In this document: positions 19,405 to 23,884 of the stretch, in pieces
Layout: each line of letters starts with the position of its first letter
How positions within the stretch are numbered: the first letter of the stretch is position 1
Notes under the pieces: model-generated
The model's database searches: none
The model's input: the letters and a program-made list of their open reading frames with translations, nothing else
Told to the model about the DNA's origin: nothing
DNA from: Hydrogenophilus sp.
GTDB taxonomy: Bacteria > Pseudomonadota > Gammaproteobacteria > Burkholderiales > Thiobacillaceae
Length of the DNA: 64,000 nt
Assembly (NCBI GenBank): GCA_020725265.1
Contig: DYFK01000002.1
Span: 1 to 64,000, forward strand
Direction: 5' to 3'
Program-made: the position numbers and the translations under genes

Positions 19405-20166
19405 ATGAAGCCCGATCTTCGCATCGCCAGCTACAACATCCACAAGGGCCTGTCGTTCTTCAACCGGCGCGTGGTGCTGCATGACGTGCGTGATCGCCTG
19501 ATGGGCATCAACGCCGACATCGTCTTCCTGCAGGAAGTCCAGGGCCACCACGCCCATCACGCCTGGCGCTTCGATCAATGGCCGGCCAAACCGCAGCACG
19601 AGTTCCTGGCCGGTGGCCACTGGCACGCCACCGCCTACGGCCGCAACGCGGTCTACGAACATGGCCATCACGGCAACGCCATCCTGTCGCGTTTTCCGAT
19701 CCTGAACTGGGAGAACGTCGACATTTCCGCGCATGCCTTCGAAAACCGCGGCCTGCTCCACTGCGAACTCGACGTGCCCGGCCTGGGCCGGTCGCTGCAT
19801 GCCATCTGCCTGCATCTGGCGCTCAACGAATCCGGCCGGCGCAAGCAGATCCATCAGCTTGGCGAACGCATCCGGCGCATGGTGCCGGATGACGCGCCGC
19901 TGATCGTGGCCGGAGACTTCAACGACTGGCGCCAGCGCGTCGACCGCTATCTGGCCGAGGAACTCGGCGTCAAGGAAGTGTTCGAGACCGCCCACGGCCG
20001 ACCGGCGCGCAGCTTTCCGGCGGCCCTGCCGCTGTTCACGCTTGATCGCATCTACGTGCGCGGTTTCGGTGTCACCGCCGCCAAGGTGCTGCACGGCAGC
20101 CACTGGCGCAGCCTGTCCGACCACGCCGCGCTGACCGCGCACCTGCGCCCGGCCACCACGAAGTGA
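19405..20166 (+). CDS. Endonuclease/exonuclease/phosphatase (EEP) family protein
   Basis: A 253-residue cytosolic-looking protein with the EEP fold: SYNIHKG near the N-terminus, LQEVQGHH with the metal-binding Glu, GDFNDWRQRVD, LDRIYVRG and SDHAALTA with the catalytic Asp-His. EEP enzymes cut phosphodiesters in nucleic acids, lipids or inositides. Genes of this type often pair with cardiolipin synthase ClsB, as here (GTGA overlap), which favours a lipid-related role. The ATG at 19405 is chosen because upstream in-frame codons are repeat-derived. Confidence 0.86.
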   Translation: MKPDLRIASYNIHKGLSFFNRRVVLHDVRDRLMGINADIVFLQEVQGHHAHHAWRFDQWPAKPQHEFLAGGHWHATAYGRNAVYEHGHHGNAILSRFPILNWENVDISAHAFENRGLLHCELDVPGLGRSLHAICLHLALNESGRRKQIHQLGERIRRMVPDDAPLIVAGDFNDWRQRVDRYLAEELGVKEVFETAHGRPARSFPAALPLFTLDRIYVRGFGVTAAKVLHGSHWRSLSDHAALTAHLRPATTK

Positions 20167-21320
20167 TCGTCCCGGGCAACCGGCTCACCCTGCTGGAAAA
20201 CGGCGCCGAATACTTCCCGGCGCTGATCGCGGCGATCGACGCCGCGATCAGCGAAATCCATCTGGAAACCTACATCTACGCCGCCGACGATGCCGGCCGC
20301 GCGGTCGCCGACGCGCTGATCCGCGCGGTCCGGCGCGGCGTCACCGCCCGCGTGGTGCTCGACGGCTTCGGCTCGCGCGGCCTGCCGGCGGCGTTCATCG
20401 CCGGCCTGCGCGCGGCCGGCGTCGATCTGCTGGTATTCCGCCCGGAGCTGGCGCGCCTGCGCATGCGCCGGCAACGGCTGCGCCGGATGCACCGGAAACT
20501 GGCGGTGGTGGATGCCCGCGTGGCCTTCGTCGGCGGCATCAACATCATCGACGATCTCAACGGCCACGGCCTCAAGGCACCGCGCCAGGATTACGCGGTC
20601 CGCGTCGAAGGCCCGCTGGTCGCCGAGATCCATGCCGCCGCGCGGCGATTGTGGCGGCTGCTGATCTGGAGCCGTTTCGGCCTGAACCGCGCTGACGACG
20701 CCTGGCTGAAACCGGCCGTCACCGCGATCGGCGCGCAGGACGCGGAGTTTCTGACCCGCGACAGCGTGCGCGGACGGCGCGCGATCGAAACCGCCTATCT
20801 GCGCGCGATCGCCCGGGCGCGCCGGGAAATCCTTCTGGCCAACGCCTACTTCCTGCCCGGCCGCCGCTTCCGCCGCGCCCTGATCGACGCGGCCCGGCGT
20901 GGCCGGCGCGTGGTGCTGATGACCCAGGGCCATACCGACCATCCGCTCTATCAGGCGGCGACCCGGGCGCTGTACCGGCATTTCCTGGAAAACGGCATCG
21001 AAATCCACGAATACCAGCGCAGCGAGCTGCACGCCAAGGTCGCCGTCATCGATGGCCATTGGGCAACGGTCGGCTCCAGCAACATCGACCCGTTCAGCCT
21101 GCTGCTGGCGCGCGAGGCCAACATCATGGTCCACGACCCGGCGTTCGCCGGACAATTGCGGGCCAGCCTGGAAGTCGCCACGCGCCGGGGCGCGCACCGC
21201 ATCCATCGTCTGATCTGGCGGCGCATCCCCTGGTACAAGCGCCTGGCTTCCTGGCTCGCCTACGGCCTGGTGCGCGGACTGATGGGCCTGGCCGGTTTCG
21301 GCCGGCGCTGGGACGGCTGA
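20163..21320 (+). CDS. clsB: Cardiolipin synthase ClsB
   Basis: A 385-residue phospholipase-D-superfamily enzyme with two HKD motifs: HRKLAVVDARVAFVGG (about residue 113) and HAKVAVIDGHWATVGSSNID (about residue 290). ClsB joins phosphatidylglycerol molecules (or PG with another lipid) to make cardiolipin at the inner membrane. There is no N-terminal transmembrane helix, which is a ClsB trait. Translation starts at GTG within the stop of the EEP gene, so the two are coupled. Confidence 0.92.
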   Translation: MIVPGNRLTLLENGAEYFPALIAAIDAAISEIHLETYIYAADDAGRAVADALIRAVRRGVTARVVLDGFGSRGLPAAFIAGLRAAGVDLLVFRPELARLRMRRQRLRRMHRKLAVVDARVAFVGGINIIDDLNGHGLKAPRQDYAVRVEGPLVAEIHAAARRLWRLLIWSRFGLNRADDAWLKPAVTAIGAQDAEFLTRDSVRGRRAIETAYLRAIARARREILLANAYFLPGRRFRRALIDAARRGRRVVLMTQGHTDHPLYQAATRALYRHFLENGIEIHEYQRSELHAKVAVIDGHWATVGSSNIDPFSLLLAREANIMVHDPAFAGQLRASLEVATRRGAHRIHRLIWRRIPWYKRLASWLAYGLVRGLMGLAGFGRRWDG

Positions 21321-21335
21321 CCGACGACAGCCCGC

Positions 21336-22103
21336 TCACAGGCGCACGTAAACCCAGCCTTCGCTCATGCGCGTGGTGATTTCCTGGATCGCCGATGACG
21401 CGGTCTGGGCGACCGGCAGCAATTCGACGCGCCGCCCTTCCCGCTCCAGGCGAGCGATGGTCTGGCCGCAGGCGACGAAACCGAGGTTGGCATGGCGCGC
21501 GGCCAGGTCGGCGATGCGCTGGCCGAGCGCCCGATCCGGTGGGGTCACGTCGGCGCGCAGCAGATCCAGGCCATAGCTGTTGACCACGAGCTGAACCCGG
21601 GCATCGTCGTCGCGGGCCGCCAGCAACCGTTCGGCGACGTCGAGCGCGCGCGCCATGCGCGCCGGCTCGCCGGCATCCAGATGCAGGACGACCCGGTCGG
21701 GATCGGCATGCGCCGCCGGCGCCACCGGGTGGTATTCCTCCGGCAGGCCGGCCAGTCGGTCGAAAACCGGCGCGTCGGTGACTCGATCGCGCAGGGACCA
21801 GCCAACGCCCAGCCCGGTCGCCAGCAACAGGCCGGCCGCCATGGCCCGCCACCAGAGCGTGCCGGCCCCGCCTGGGCGGCGGCCGCGCGCCGGCTCGGGT
21901 GGCAGCGCGTAGGCGCCTTTGACCCAGGCCTTGAGCGCGTGCGCCTCGCACACCGCCGCCTTGAATCCGGGATCGTCGCGCAAGCGCTCCAGGGCCAGAT
22001 CGCGTTCATCGGCGGCCAGCTCGCCATCGACGAAGGCGTTGAGATATTCCTGACTGATCGGTGGGTTCGACCGGCTCATCGCATCCTCCTGTTTCATTGT
22101 CAT
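21336..22103 (-). CDS. Membrane anti-sigma factor with C-terminal DsrE-like domain
   Basis: A 255-residue protein whose ATG overlaps the sigma gene stop (ATGA). Residues 17-65 (YLNAFVDGELAADERDLAL) resemble N-terminal sigma-binding domains of membrane anti-sigma factors, though the zinc HxxxCxxC motif is absent. Residues about 83-103 form one membrane helix. Residues about 135-255 (VVLHLDAGEPARMARALDV, LVVNSYGLDLL, GFVACGQTI, SEGWVYVRL) look like a DsrE-type fold and would be periplasmic. The same motif order is present in the exported protein at 22807. It probably senses a periplasmic signal and releases the sigma factor. Confidence 0.72.
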   Translation of the reverse strand: MTMKQEDAMSRSNPPISQEYLNAFVDGELAADERDLALERLRDDPGFKAAVCEAHALKAWVKGAYALPPEPARGRRPGGAGTLWWRAMAAGLLLATGLGVGWSLRDRVTDAPVFDRLAGLPEEYHPVAPAAHADPDRVVLHLDAGEPARMARALDVAERLLAARDDDARVQLVVNSYGLDLLRADVTPPDRALGQRIADLAARHANLGFVACGQTIARLEREGRRVELLPVAQTASSAIQEITTRMSEGWVYVRL

Positions 22104-22660
22104 TTCACCCGACGCAGACCGTTTCGCGGCGCCGCGCCGGCCTGATCGTCCCGTTCGGCCAGACGCTCGCGCAAGGCTTGGCGCGCGCGCGACAGGCGGC
22201 TCATGACGGTACCGACCGGCACGCCGAGGATGCCCGCCACCTCGGCGTAGCCAAGCTCCTCGAGATCGACCAGGGTGATGGTCTGGCGCTGCCCCATCGG
22301 CAGGCCGGCGATCGCGCCGCGCACGCGCTGGCTGATCTGGCGGCTGGCGTAAAGCTGTTCCGGACCTTCGGCGTCGGACACCACCAGTTCATCGAGCGCT
22401 TCCGGATCGGCGAAATCCCGTCGCCGGCGCAGATGGTCGCGCCAGCAGTTGTTGAGGATCGAGAACAGCCAGCCCTCCAGCGCCTGGCCGTCGCGCAACT
22501 GCTCGACCCGGGCCAGCGCCTTGGCCAGGGTTTCCTGGGCGAGATCGTCGGCCAGGGCCGGATCGTGGCACCAGGAATGCGCCAGCCGATACAGACGCGG
22601 ACGCAGGTCTTCCAGGCGTCGACGCGACGAGGGATGCAACAGGTTCAGCAATGCGCGCAC
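22100..22660 (-). CDS. ECF-type RNA polymerase sigma factor
   Basis: About 186 residues with sigma region 2 (LADDLAQETLAKAL, GWLFSILNNCWRDHLRRRRD) and region 4 (GLPMGQRQTITLVDLEELGY, VPVGTVMSRLSRARQALRERL); region 3 is missing, as in ECF factors. The frame is open from a TTG at 22690, but the promoter motif at 22692-22717 puts the likely transcript start near 22684, downstream of that TTG. I therefore take the GTG at 22660. It is coupled to its anti-sigma gene and divergent from the DsrE-like gene. Confidence 0.88.
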   Translation of the reverse strand: MRALLNLLHPSSRRRLEDLRPRLYRLAHSWCHDPALADDLAQETLAKALARVEQLRDGQALEGWLFSILNNCWRDHLRRRRDFADPEALDELVVSDAEGPEQLYASRQISQRVRGAIAGLPMGQRQTITLVDLEELGYAEVAGILGVPVGTVMSRLSRARQALRERLAERDDQAGAAPRNGLRRVK

Positions 22661-22691
22661 GGTGGCCCCGTTCGAGGACGATGACAGCAAG

Positions 22692-22717
22692 GACGTGGCG
22701 ACTGGTCGATTTATTCC
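22692..22717 (-). promoter_or_regulatory. ECF-type promoter for the sigma/anti-sigma operon
   Basis: On the minus strand there is GGAATA (22717-22712), a 16-bp spacer, then CGTC (22695-22692). The hexamer and tetramer match the general ECF pattern (GGAAT-like -35, CGTC-like -10). It would start transcription near 22684, giving a short leader before the GTG at 22660. Same motif and spacer as the divergent promoter, which suggests autoregulation. Confidence 0.65.
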
Positions 22718-22728
22718 ATGTTCCGGCT

Positions 22729-22754
22729 GGAATATTCCCGACGGTGGCTACGTC
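22729..22754 (+). promoter_or_regulatory. ECF-type promoter for the exported DsrE-like gene
   Basis: GGAATA (22729-22734), a 16-bp spacer and CGTC (22751-22754), identical in motif and spacing to the oppositely directed promoter. A transcript from about 22762 would have a leader of roughly 45 bases with a good AGGAG ribosome site (22793-22797). This links the DsrE-like gene to the adjacent sigma factor. Confidence 0.65.
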
Positions 22755-22806
22755 CTACCCGGCGTGGAGTGTTCCACATCCAATCCATTCACGAGGAGAC
22801 CCCATC

Positions 22807-23259
22807 ATGCAACGCCATTCCCTGCTCGCCGCCCTGCTCTGCGCCGGACTCGCCATGCCGATCGCCCAGGCCGCGCCGATGCCGGCGGCCGGCGAGGCGG
22901 AAACCGCCGCTGTCGAGAAAGTGGTCTACCACATCAACGACAGCGCCGTTGCCCGCATCGCGATGCGCAACATCGAGAACCATCTGGGCGCCTCGCCGGA
23001 CGCGCGCATCGTCGTCGTCACCCACGGCAAGGGCATCGACTTCCTGCTCAACGACGCCAAGGACGAGCGTGGCGCCTACGCGCCCCAGGTCGCCGGTCTG
23101 CGCGACAAGGGCGTCGATTTCCGGGTCTGCCGCAATACCCTGAAGGGCCGCAAGCTCGACGACGGCGCCGTGATCATGGAAGCGCGCGTGGTGCCGGCCG
23201 GCGTCGCCGAGATCGGCCGCTTGCAGGCCAGGGAAGGCTACGTCTACCTGAAACCCTGA
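22807..23259 (+). CDS. Exported DsrE-like protein
   Basis: A 150-residue protein with a Sec signal peptide ending AQA at about residue 23. The mature part (VVYHINDSAVARIAMRNIE, VVVTHGKGIDFLL, DFRVCRNTL, GYVYLKP) has the DsrE/COG1416 pattern with a single cysteine. DsrE-family proteins in the cytoplasm carry sulfur as persulfide or bind small ligands; a periplasmic one has no settled role. Its motif order matches the C-terminal domain of the divergent anti-sigma factor. AGGAG lies upstream of the ATG and an ECF-type promoter at 22729. Convergent with ubiX. Confidence 0.85.
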   Translation: MQRHSLLAALLCAGLAMPIAQAAPMPAAGEAETAAVEKVVYHINDSAVARIAMRNIENHLGASPDARIVVVTHGKGIDFLLNDAKDERGAYAPQVAGLRDKGVDFRVCRNTLKGRKLDDGAVIMEARVVPAGVAEIGRLQAREGYVYLKP

Positions 23260-23260
23260 G

Positions 23261-23884
23261 TCAGAATCCCCGAGACGCCGGGTCGTCATCGCCCCAGCGC
23301 GCGATCAGCGCGTGCTCGACGCCGAGCTGGTCGAGCACGCGGGCGACGACGAAATCGACCACACGGTCGACCGACTCCGGCCGATGGTAGAAGCCGGGAT
23401 TGGCCGGCAGGATGATGGCGCCAGCCTCGGCCAGCGCGGTCATGTTGCGCAGATGGACGAGCGAGAACGGTGTCTCCCGGGGCACCAGGATCAGCGGCCG
23501 CCGTTCCTTGAGCATGACGTCGGCGGCGCGCTCGATCAGGTTGTCGGCGAGGCCGTGGGCGATCGCGGCCAGGCTGCCCATGGTGCACGGACAAACCACC
23601 ATGGCGTCGGCCGGGTTCGAGCCGGAGGCCGCCGGCGCGAACCACTCCTCCTTGCCGTAAGCGCGCAGCCGGCCGGCGTGGCCGGCGAAACGGGCATCGA
23701 AAAAAGCCACCAGTTCGGCGTTGTCGGCGGGCAGGCGCAGATCGAGTTCCTGGCGGGCGACGATGCGCGCGGCCTGGGAAGCCAGCAGATCGACCGCGTG
23801 GCCGGCGCGCAACAGGCATTCGAGCAGACGCAGGCCGTATGCCATGCCGGAAGCGCCGGTGAGGGCGAGCGTGATGCGTTTCAT
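23261..23884 (-). CDS. ubiX: Flavin prenyltransferase UbiX
   Basis: A 207-residue flavoprotein of normal UbiX length. It adds a dimethylallyl group to FMN to make prenylated FMN, the cofactor of the UbiD decarboxylase in ubiquinone synthesis. Visible motifs are LALTGASGMAYGLRLLE (FMN-binding loop), VVCPCTMGSLAAIAHGLADN, and LVPRETPFSLVHLRNM. The stop lies one base after the convergent DsrE-like gene. Confidence 0.95.
   Translation of the reverse strand: MKRITLALTGASGMAYGLRLLECLLRAGHAVDLLASQAARIVARQELDLRLPADNAELVAFFDARFAGHAGRLRAYGKEEWFAPAASGSNPADAMVVCPCTMGSLAAIAHGLADNLIERAADVMLKERRPLILVPRETPFSLVHLRNMTALAEAGAIILPANPGFYHRPESVDRVVDFVVARVLDQLGVEHALIARWGDDDPASRGF

Follow-up and report, generated by a model that had tools for sequence, protein, structure and literature searches.

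Does a membrane regulator whose outer half resembles the gene product under its control belong to a circuit for sulfur, and how general is such an arrangement? The question is raised by a module at positions 21336..23259 of a 64,000-nucleotide stretch of Hydrogenophilus sp. DNA (assembly GCA_020725265.1, contig DYFK01000002.1, positions 1 to 64,000; hereafter the window), where genes for an extracytoplasmic function (ECF) sigma factor, an anti-sigma factor and an exported DsrE-family protein lie together. A sequence-only reading of the window had proposed that the anti-sigma factor ends in a DsrE-like domain, that the sigma factor controls the exported protein, and that the three genes form a periplasmic sulfur- or redox-responsive circuit. 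Computation establishes the genes, the homology of the two domains, a recurring gene order, promoter-like sites and a link to sox genes, and we consider it probable that the module forms an ECF sigma/anti-sigma circuit dedicated to the handling of sulfur in the periplasm.

The three open reading frames stand as that reading had drawn them. The sigma factor (22100..22657, minus strand; 185 aa) matches Sigma70_r2 (8e-16) and Sigma70_r4_2 (6e-15) in Pfam, and region 3 is absent from the family matches of the 185-residue form at E<=10, leaving regions 2 and 4 only. Its GTG start is preferred; the frame is open up to a TTG at 22690, and that TTG sits within a predicted promoter. The anti-sigma gene (21336..22103, minus strand; 255 aa) overlaps the sigma gene by 4 bases, and its product joins an N-terminal helical anti-sigma domain to one transmembrane (TM) helix and a C-terminal DsrE-fold domain. 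A sigma factor with regions 2 and 4 only, followed directly by a membrane anti-sigma factor in one operon, identifies an ECF sigma/anti-sigma pair, for which binding and release of the sigma factor are predicted. On the other strand, the exported protein (22807..23259, plus strand; 150 aa) begins with a probable Sec signal peptide, read by eye from the sequence (residues 1-23; 22807..22875, plus strand).

The exported protein is a member of the DsrE superfamily, with a profile match above the Pfam cut-off (PF02635, 3.5e-10) and a conserved cysteine. Taken as a single sequence, residues 140-253 of the anti-sigma factor fall short of the same family (E=0.096; 13.3 bits vs a cut-off of 22.7), and DsrE is matched at E<=1 in four of 27 aligned anti-sigma proteins, the best at 5.8e-4. 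BLASTP of the anti-sigma factor against the exported protein gives E=1e-6 over anti-sigma residues 136-254, and a profile-profile comparison of the 27 anti-sigma with 20 exported sequences gives a match of 98.1% and E=8.3e-14, spanning most of the mature protein. Against solved structures the anti-sigma profile finds the DsrE-like 1L1S (MTH1491; 1.6e-13) and 2PD2 (6.6e-6), together with short, weakly matching stretches of LexA (best E 0.01). The AlphaFold2 model, built on the 27-sequence alignment (mean pLDDT 87.5), has a helical N-terminal domain at residues 18-64, a TM helix at 82-109 and a domain of alternating strands and helices at 137-254 with pLDDT block means of 92-97. On the profile comparison and the modelled secondary structure, the C-terminal domain (residues 136-254; 21342..21698, minus strand) is a DsrE fold, predicted to be periplasmic and sensor-like; the outer half of the anti-sigma factor and the exported protein carry homologous DsrE-fold domains.

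The motif parallels noticed from the letters alone are real, and the profile comparison and anti-sigma structure prediction proposed alongside them both came out in their favour: Cys212 (ACGQT) is invariant in 27/27 aligned anti-sigma sequences, and Cys108 (VCRNTL) in 20/20 exported ones. After residue 30, Cys108 is the only cysteine in 19 of the 20 exported sequences, the window protein included; a lipobox occurs in one (L086) of these homologues. Sulfur is presumed to be bound or passed on through the cysteines of the DsrE domains.

The remainder of the anti-sigma factor follows a familiar plan. MucA and RseA consist of a cytoplasmic helical sigma-binding domain, one TM helix and a periplasmic domain, the same order as here, but in them the periplasmic domain has a fold other than DsrE and binds MucB/RseB. 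The N-terminal part is weakly similar to RseA (E 0.17) and to the AlgU negative regulator (E 0.18). Its helical domain (21912..22052, minus strand), presumed to be cytoplasmic and sigma-binding, matches zf-HC2 at E<=1 in 21 of the 27 members (best 1.8e-5; the window protein, at 0.076, is below the cut-off); Cys52 is kept in 26/27, and the motif HxxxCxxC occurs in 0/27. The TM helix lies at 21777..21860 (minus strand).

The sequence-only reading had named two outcomes that would refute it, the lack of a significant profile match between the two domains and a three-gene set confined to one genome; neither occurred. The set, for which it had recommended a survey, is found in many genomes, Thiobacillus and Sulfuritalea among them. 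Among 61 relatives, 30 match the anti-sigma factor at 0.001, and 27 were counted as having a full anti-sigma factor after the weak or partial matches in G041, G046 and G047 were left out. A scan of named genomes gave 55 loci, of which 20 carry Thiobacillus in the title (one is T. thioparus DSM 505), six Hydrogenophilales/Hydrogenophilaceae and five Sulfuritalea, the remainder being Betaproteobacteria and others. At the level of the class, 92 of 369 genomes match at 1e-8, and 66 have a near full-length match among the matches listed (hand count, without partial matches at contig ends such as those in G319 and G150). From these, 40 regions were sampled, 37 by going down the match list and three others (G361, G122, G405) chosen because a DsrE match was known nearby; they contain 42 modules, with the sigma gene upstream of the anti-sigma gene in 42/42. 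Below we call the window and the nearer loci, including those of the named-genome scan, the near group, and the more distant loci the class group. A divergent DsrE gene adjoins the module in 52 of 62 near and 25 of 42 class loci. Two tandem sigma/anti-sigma modules with more DsrE genes adjoining were seen in single loci (L206, L211).

A phylum survey at 1e-20 matched 15/398 genomes, full-length in three, all of the same class. The remaining phylum matches begin at position 65 or later, and five partial phylum loci, taken with 1.5 kb flanks, have the TM/DsrE part with neither the anti-sigma part nor a relative of the sigma factor. Plasmids yielded no match to the anti-sigma factor at E<=0.01; the sigma factor matched 503 plasmid records, all at less than 60% identity, the best 40 of the 503 at 35-43%; two of these 40, H1 and the unannotated H19, were examined.

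What joins the exported protein to the sigma factor is the intergenic region. From the GTG of the sigma gene to the ATG of the DsrE gene there are 149 bases, which hold two copies of TGGAATA-N16-CGTCCT facing apart, the predicted ECF promoters of the sigma/anti-sigma operon (22690..22718, minus strand) and of the exported DsrE gene (22728..22756, plus strand), which gives a promoter-like consensus GGAAT-N17-CGTC placed back to back. These are the only two exact strict sites in the Hydrogenophilus sp. genome, and a large regulon there was rejected on this ground. The looser GGAAT-N16-18-CGTC has 122 sites in the same genome and its reversed control six, and is uninformative alone. Exact strict sites occur in 20 of the 27 relatives with the anti-sigma factor and 1/34 without it; the reversed pattern occurs in 0/61. 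The main promoter count covered 104 non-redundant loci with a sigma match below 1e-30, a rule that excludes L097. In the near group the DsrE-side site is present in 50/52 loci with a divergent DsrE gene and 0/10 without; in the class group, where each of the three regions chosen for a nearby DsrE match (L236-L238) has a divergent DsrE gene, it is present in 13/25 with and 6/17 without. By slightly looser rules the sigma-side site is found in 59/63 loci, and the DsrE-side site in 50/53 with DsrE and 0/10 without. Of 105 loci, 89 have a sigma-side and 69 a DsrE-side site, and base shuffles lead one to expect 0.28 and 0.14. The distance between the -35 boxes in the 65 loci with both sites peaks at 12-13 bp (six loci), 22-24 (34) and 36 (three), the rest being scattered; the peaks are separated by steps of roughly one DNA turn. 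In the Hydrogenophilus sp. genome a one-mismatch site at C26:5026 was rejected as probably due to chance, since it lies within a long open frame (-931 to +488).

The site also follows the gene when the gene is found elsewhere. Seven relatives have an anti-sigma locus without a divergent DsrE gene (G002, G012, G013, G021, G026, G029, G056); in three of them (G002, G021, G056) the site precedes an exported DsrE gene at another position in the genome, G026 has it there with a single change in the -10 box, and in G013 the exported DsrE gene is cut by the contig end. The second DsrE gene in G056 and in G026 has no site, nor was a site found at the DsrE gene in any of eight DsrE-bearing relatives that lack the anti-sigma factor (G001, G004, G005, G006, G008, G009, G011, G030). 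Control of the exported DsrE gene by the sigma factor, as proposed from the window alone, is thus supported by a conserved predicted promoter, at DsrE genes elsewhere in the genome as well as within the module.

Extra sites point to further targets. One precedes a second exported DsrE gene (G018), one a SoxB-like metallophosphatase (G010, with 29 identical bases in G007), one a YeiH-like membrane protein (G050; Cons_hypoth698 4e-47, TIGR00698 1.1e-21, below cut-off) and one, possibly by chance, a response regulator (G015); others lie in G043, before a small open reading frame, and in G035. A porin-like gene is found on the divergent strand in 45/102 loci (26 of the class group), mostly behind DsrE as in L209, and in L205 and L222 it replaces DsrE; one member matches Porin_4 (7e-7), and the L205 member matched no family. 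The same sigma factor seems, in relatives, to act also on genes for SoxB-like hydrolases, for a porin and for a YeiH-like transporter and, to judge by position, on sox genes. Four loci (L097:7656-8669, L137, L145, which is from the same genome as L094, and L238) have a solute-binding protein with a short cysteine motif near the module. Another exported DsrE-family gene (PF02635 1.1e-14 for one member) lies about 3-5 kb from the sigma gene in 13 near loci, among them the Thiobacillus loci L118 and L119, and in two class loci.

The link to sulfur has two strands, neighbourhood and co-occurrence, and both support the sulfur role suggested by the sequence-only reading. In L218 and L232 the genes for sigma factor, anti-sigma factor, soxX, soxY, soxZ, soxA and soxB follow in this order on one strand; all five sox genes of L218 score above the NCBIfam cut-offs, and those of L232 were assigned by BLAST against L218, SoxB by profile too. 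In L093 soxYZ lies either side of the module with soxB downstream, in L105 a soxB gene cut by the contig end lies 3.8 kb downstream of the sigma start, and two loci, L230 and L220, have a gene for a SoxB-like protein divergently placed behind the site (L230 matches the SoxB profile at 1.8e-51, below cut-off; L220 was recognized by eye). SoxB is present in 64 of the 66 class genomes with the anti-sigma factor vs 86 of 303 without (Fisher p=4.5e-27, in a test that ignores kinship among genomes). The hosts are probable sulfur-oxidising bacteria; the Hydrogenophilus sp. genome has two dsrA genes (G000:C15:132003 and G000:C25:26223), one of them near a DsrE pair. In G227 (C3:92850-97362) SoxB and the anti-sigma gene are about 2 kb apart.

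From these observations we infer a signal, a cysteine chemistry, a release step and a feedback as follows. Without signal the membrane anti-sigma factor would hold the sigma factor. The outer DsrE-fold domain would meet a sulfur species in the periplasm (sulfane sulfur, thiosulfate and sulfite being the likeliest), which would load onto, or react with, the invariant Cys212, and rearrangement or proteolysis of the anti-sigma factor would free the sigma factor. RNA polymerase with this sigma factor would then read the two back-to-back promoters, making more of its own operon and of the exported DsrE protein, which probably serves as a periplasmic carrier or buffer for sulfur of the same kind, so that the signal would fall; elsewhere, Sox-linked genes would also be made. 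A sulfur or thiol signal is favoured over a purely structural domain because the cysteine is kept in all aligned sensors and products.

Several observations weigh against a dedicated sulfur circuit, or against parts of it, beyond the kinship that the SoxB test leaves out of account. Charges around the TM helix give modest support for the topology (more K+R before than after the helix in 19/27 members, equal in five, opposite in three). Ten near loci have no divergent DsrE gene (one, L096, has only the N-terminal part of the anti-sigma factor), and G012 and G029, which are 58% and 89% complete, have no such DsrE gene anywhere at 1e-10. Seven of the 27 relatives with the anti-sigma factor lack an exact strict site, and when up to two mismatches are allowed the strict pattern comes near noise (57 sites vs 41 for the reversed control). 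In the class group 12 of the 25 modules with a divergent DsrE gene have no DsrE-side site, and eight have no site on either side; the gene arrangement is therefore kept there while the promoters have partly drifted or are different. SoxB is not found at E<=1e-60 in the window's own genome (three of five candidates scored) or in G115. SoxB or SoxB-like genes adjoin the module in 5/102 loci by BLAST, with L220 added by eye, so that sox adjacency is the exception.

An alternative that we take seriously but doubt is that the circuit is that of RpoE4 or SigE in Sinorhizobium and Starkeya with another sensor domain, answering sulfite formed in sulfur oxidation. ECF26 sigma factors of these genera answer sulfite or sulfite-forming substrates and have few known targets, which are sulfite-oxidising enzymes (PMC3511301, PMC6527743), and the consensus reported there is identical (-35 GGAAT, -10 CGTC; PMC6527743). 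The same 2019 text has the sigma factor released from its anti-sigma factor by a mechanism not yet known and names the molecular details of sensing by anti-sigma factors in sulfite circuits as open work (PMC6527743). Our sigma factor is perhaps in or near ECF26, judged by promoter consensus rather than by a group model. The module shares with RpoE1/RpoE4 of Sinorhizobium meliloti and SigE of Starkeya novella the ECF sigma/anti-sigma pair, the GGAAT/CGTC promoter, the sulfur link and the small number of targets; it differs in its DsrE-fold outer domain and in its predicted target, an exported DsrE protein in place of the sulfite-oxidising enzymes that are the known targets in those systems. Plasmid-borne anti-sigma proteins of Ensifer (L269) and Azospirillum (L270), beside sigma factors compared as relatives and not as established ECF26 members, match the N-terminal and TM parts (3.7e-11 and 4.3e-11); neither matches DsrE at E<=10. 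Common N-terminal and TM parts without DsrE fit a modular exchange of the sensor.

The history of the sensor domain bears on a second alternative, in which the exported DsrE protein and the anti-sigma DsrE domain assemble into one mixed oligomer. Whether the exported protein is loaded with sulfur or free would then decide on sigma release, and the circuit would read its own carrier rather than a small molecule. In a tree of 55 DsrE domains (rows hand-picked from a larger set; unrooted, with midpoint for drawing) the anti-sigma domains form one group (100/96), and a branch supported at 100/99 separates the window's exported type from the anti-sigma domains and a second exported group. That second group holds the DsrE proteins of class loci, of L092 and L094, one of those of L097, and the phylum matches L301-L304; by branch length the sensor is nearer to it, its support as one group being weak (87/51). 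The tree rules out a recent duplication of the product into the sensor.

A separate event is seen in L097 (5687-6385, minus strand; genome G046), where a zinc-type anti-sigma factor is fused to DsrE, both Pfam domains being above cut-off. Two exported DsrE genes and a gene for a solute-binding protein (SBP_bac_11, 2.3e-32) adjoin it. Like the window's anti-sigma factor, this one has a divergent exported DsrE gene beside its sigma gene; it differs in its zf-HC2 match above cut-off, in a DsrE domain that falls within the window's exported branch (type I), and in having no GGAAT/CGTC site found. This placement in the tree makes it an independent fusion: at least two times the DsrE fold has become the sensor of an anti-sigma factor, and the divergent partner has been exchanged while the sensor stayed one clade.

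A mixed oligomer of sensor and product would suit the common fold on the two sides of one circuit, the joint presence of promoter and product in the near group (50/52), the closeness of the L097 sensor to exported type I, and the fact that DsrE-fold proteins are commonly oligomeric. It sits badly with the differing exported subfamilies that fill the divergent slot beside a single clade of sensors, and with modules that have no adjoining exported DsrE gene, above all those of G012 and G029, where the genome shows none at 1e-10. The sensor's nearness, by branch length, to another exported subfamily also weakens the simple model of a shared ligand or dimer. Direct contact of product and sensor is possible, but as an account of the circuit we judge it distinctly unlikely. 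Returning to the dedicated sulfur circuit, we put forward a fuller version as a tentative proposal that falls somewhat short of probable: sensor and effector of one fold would compete for, or hand over, persulfide sulfur, the cell would read the loading of its periplasmic sulfur pool, and the circuit would be a widespread class, its sensor made at least twice, that controls exported carriers and Sox-linked genes.

Release could also be driven by general envelope stress, with no sulfur ligand involved. A third alternative treats the sigma factor as a general redox or envelope-stress regulator, with DsrE as a stable outer domain carrying an oxidisable cysteine and the sulfur genes incidental. 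One conserved cysteine on each side of the membrane and the weak N-terminal likeness to RseA and the AlgU negative regulator speak for this; we think it very unlikely, as most families behind the sites are DsrE, SoxB-like, porin and YeiH-like proteins, and the presence of the module tracks SoxB, with sox clusters adjoining in a few genomes. A fourth reading, in which the domains are unrelated Rossmann-like folds or resemble each other only by chance, as the single-sequence Pfam score and the weak LexA matches might be taken to hint, can be dismissed because BLASTP, profile comparison, solved-structure matches, the model and the common motif with its invariant cysteine all agree.

The dedicated sulfur circuit is, on our best reading, a variant so far without a name of a known kind, the novelty lying in the DsrE sensor. 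No description of an anti-sigma factor with a DsrE domain was found in a search of the main texts of open-licence literature; large ECF classification tables could name the group. The module is not described in passages of PMC7787665, PMC4949241 and PMC2147049.

The DsrE proteins most like ours in structure databases, MTH1491 (1L1S) and ST0148 (2PD2), belong to the same family and are matched by profiles of both the exported protein and the anti-sigma domain; we take them to be COG1416-like stand-alone archaeal proteins, and know of no link between them and a sigma factor. DsrEFH and TusBCD, of the same superfamily and like our module at home in sulfur-oxidising hosts, are cytoplasmic heterohexamers that hand sulfur on. 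The window's module differs from such a three-subunit cytoplasmic set in its exported and membrane-fused forms, with a signal peptide read by eye and one DsrE gene. To our knowledge, how genes for periplasmic sulfur oxidation are switched outside Alphaproteobacteria is poorly understood. What the module brings is a specific sensor domain, an invariant residue as candidate, defined promoter-like sites and, in the Hydrogenophilus sp. genome, a regulon that seems to be minimal and confined to one intergenic region, which makes it directly testable by reporter. If the proposal is true, a metabolic carrier fold has twice been turned into the sensor of its own circuit, and cells possess a circuit that regulates itself and deals with sulfur compounds beyond the cell membrane.

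The module is flanked in the window by a gene with a PLD domain (20163-21320) on one side and a gene with a flavoprotein domain (23261-23884) on the other. Elsewhere in the same genome, three more DsrE-family matches lie within 4.3 kb of each other (G000:C5:72460-76683).

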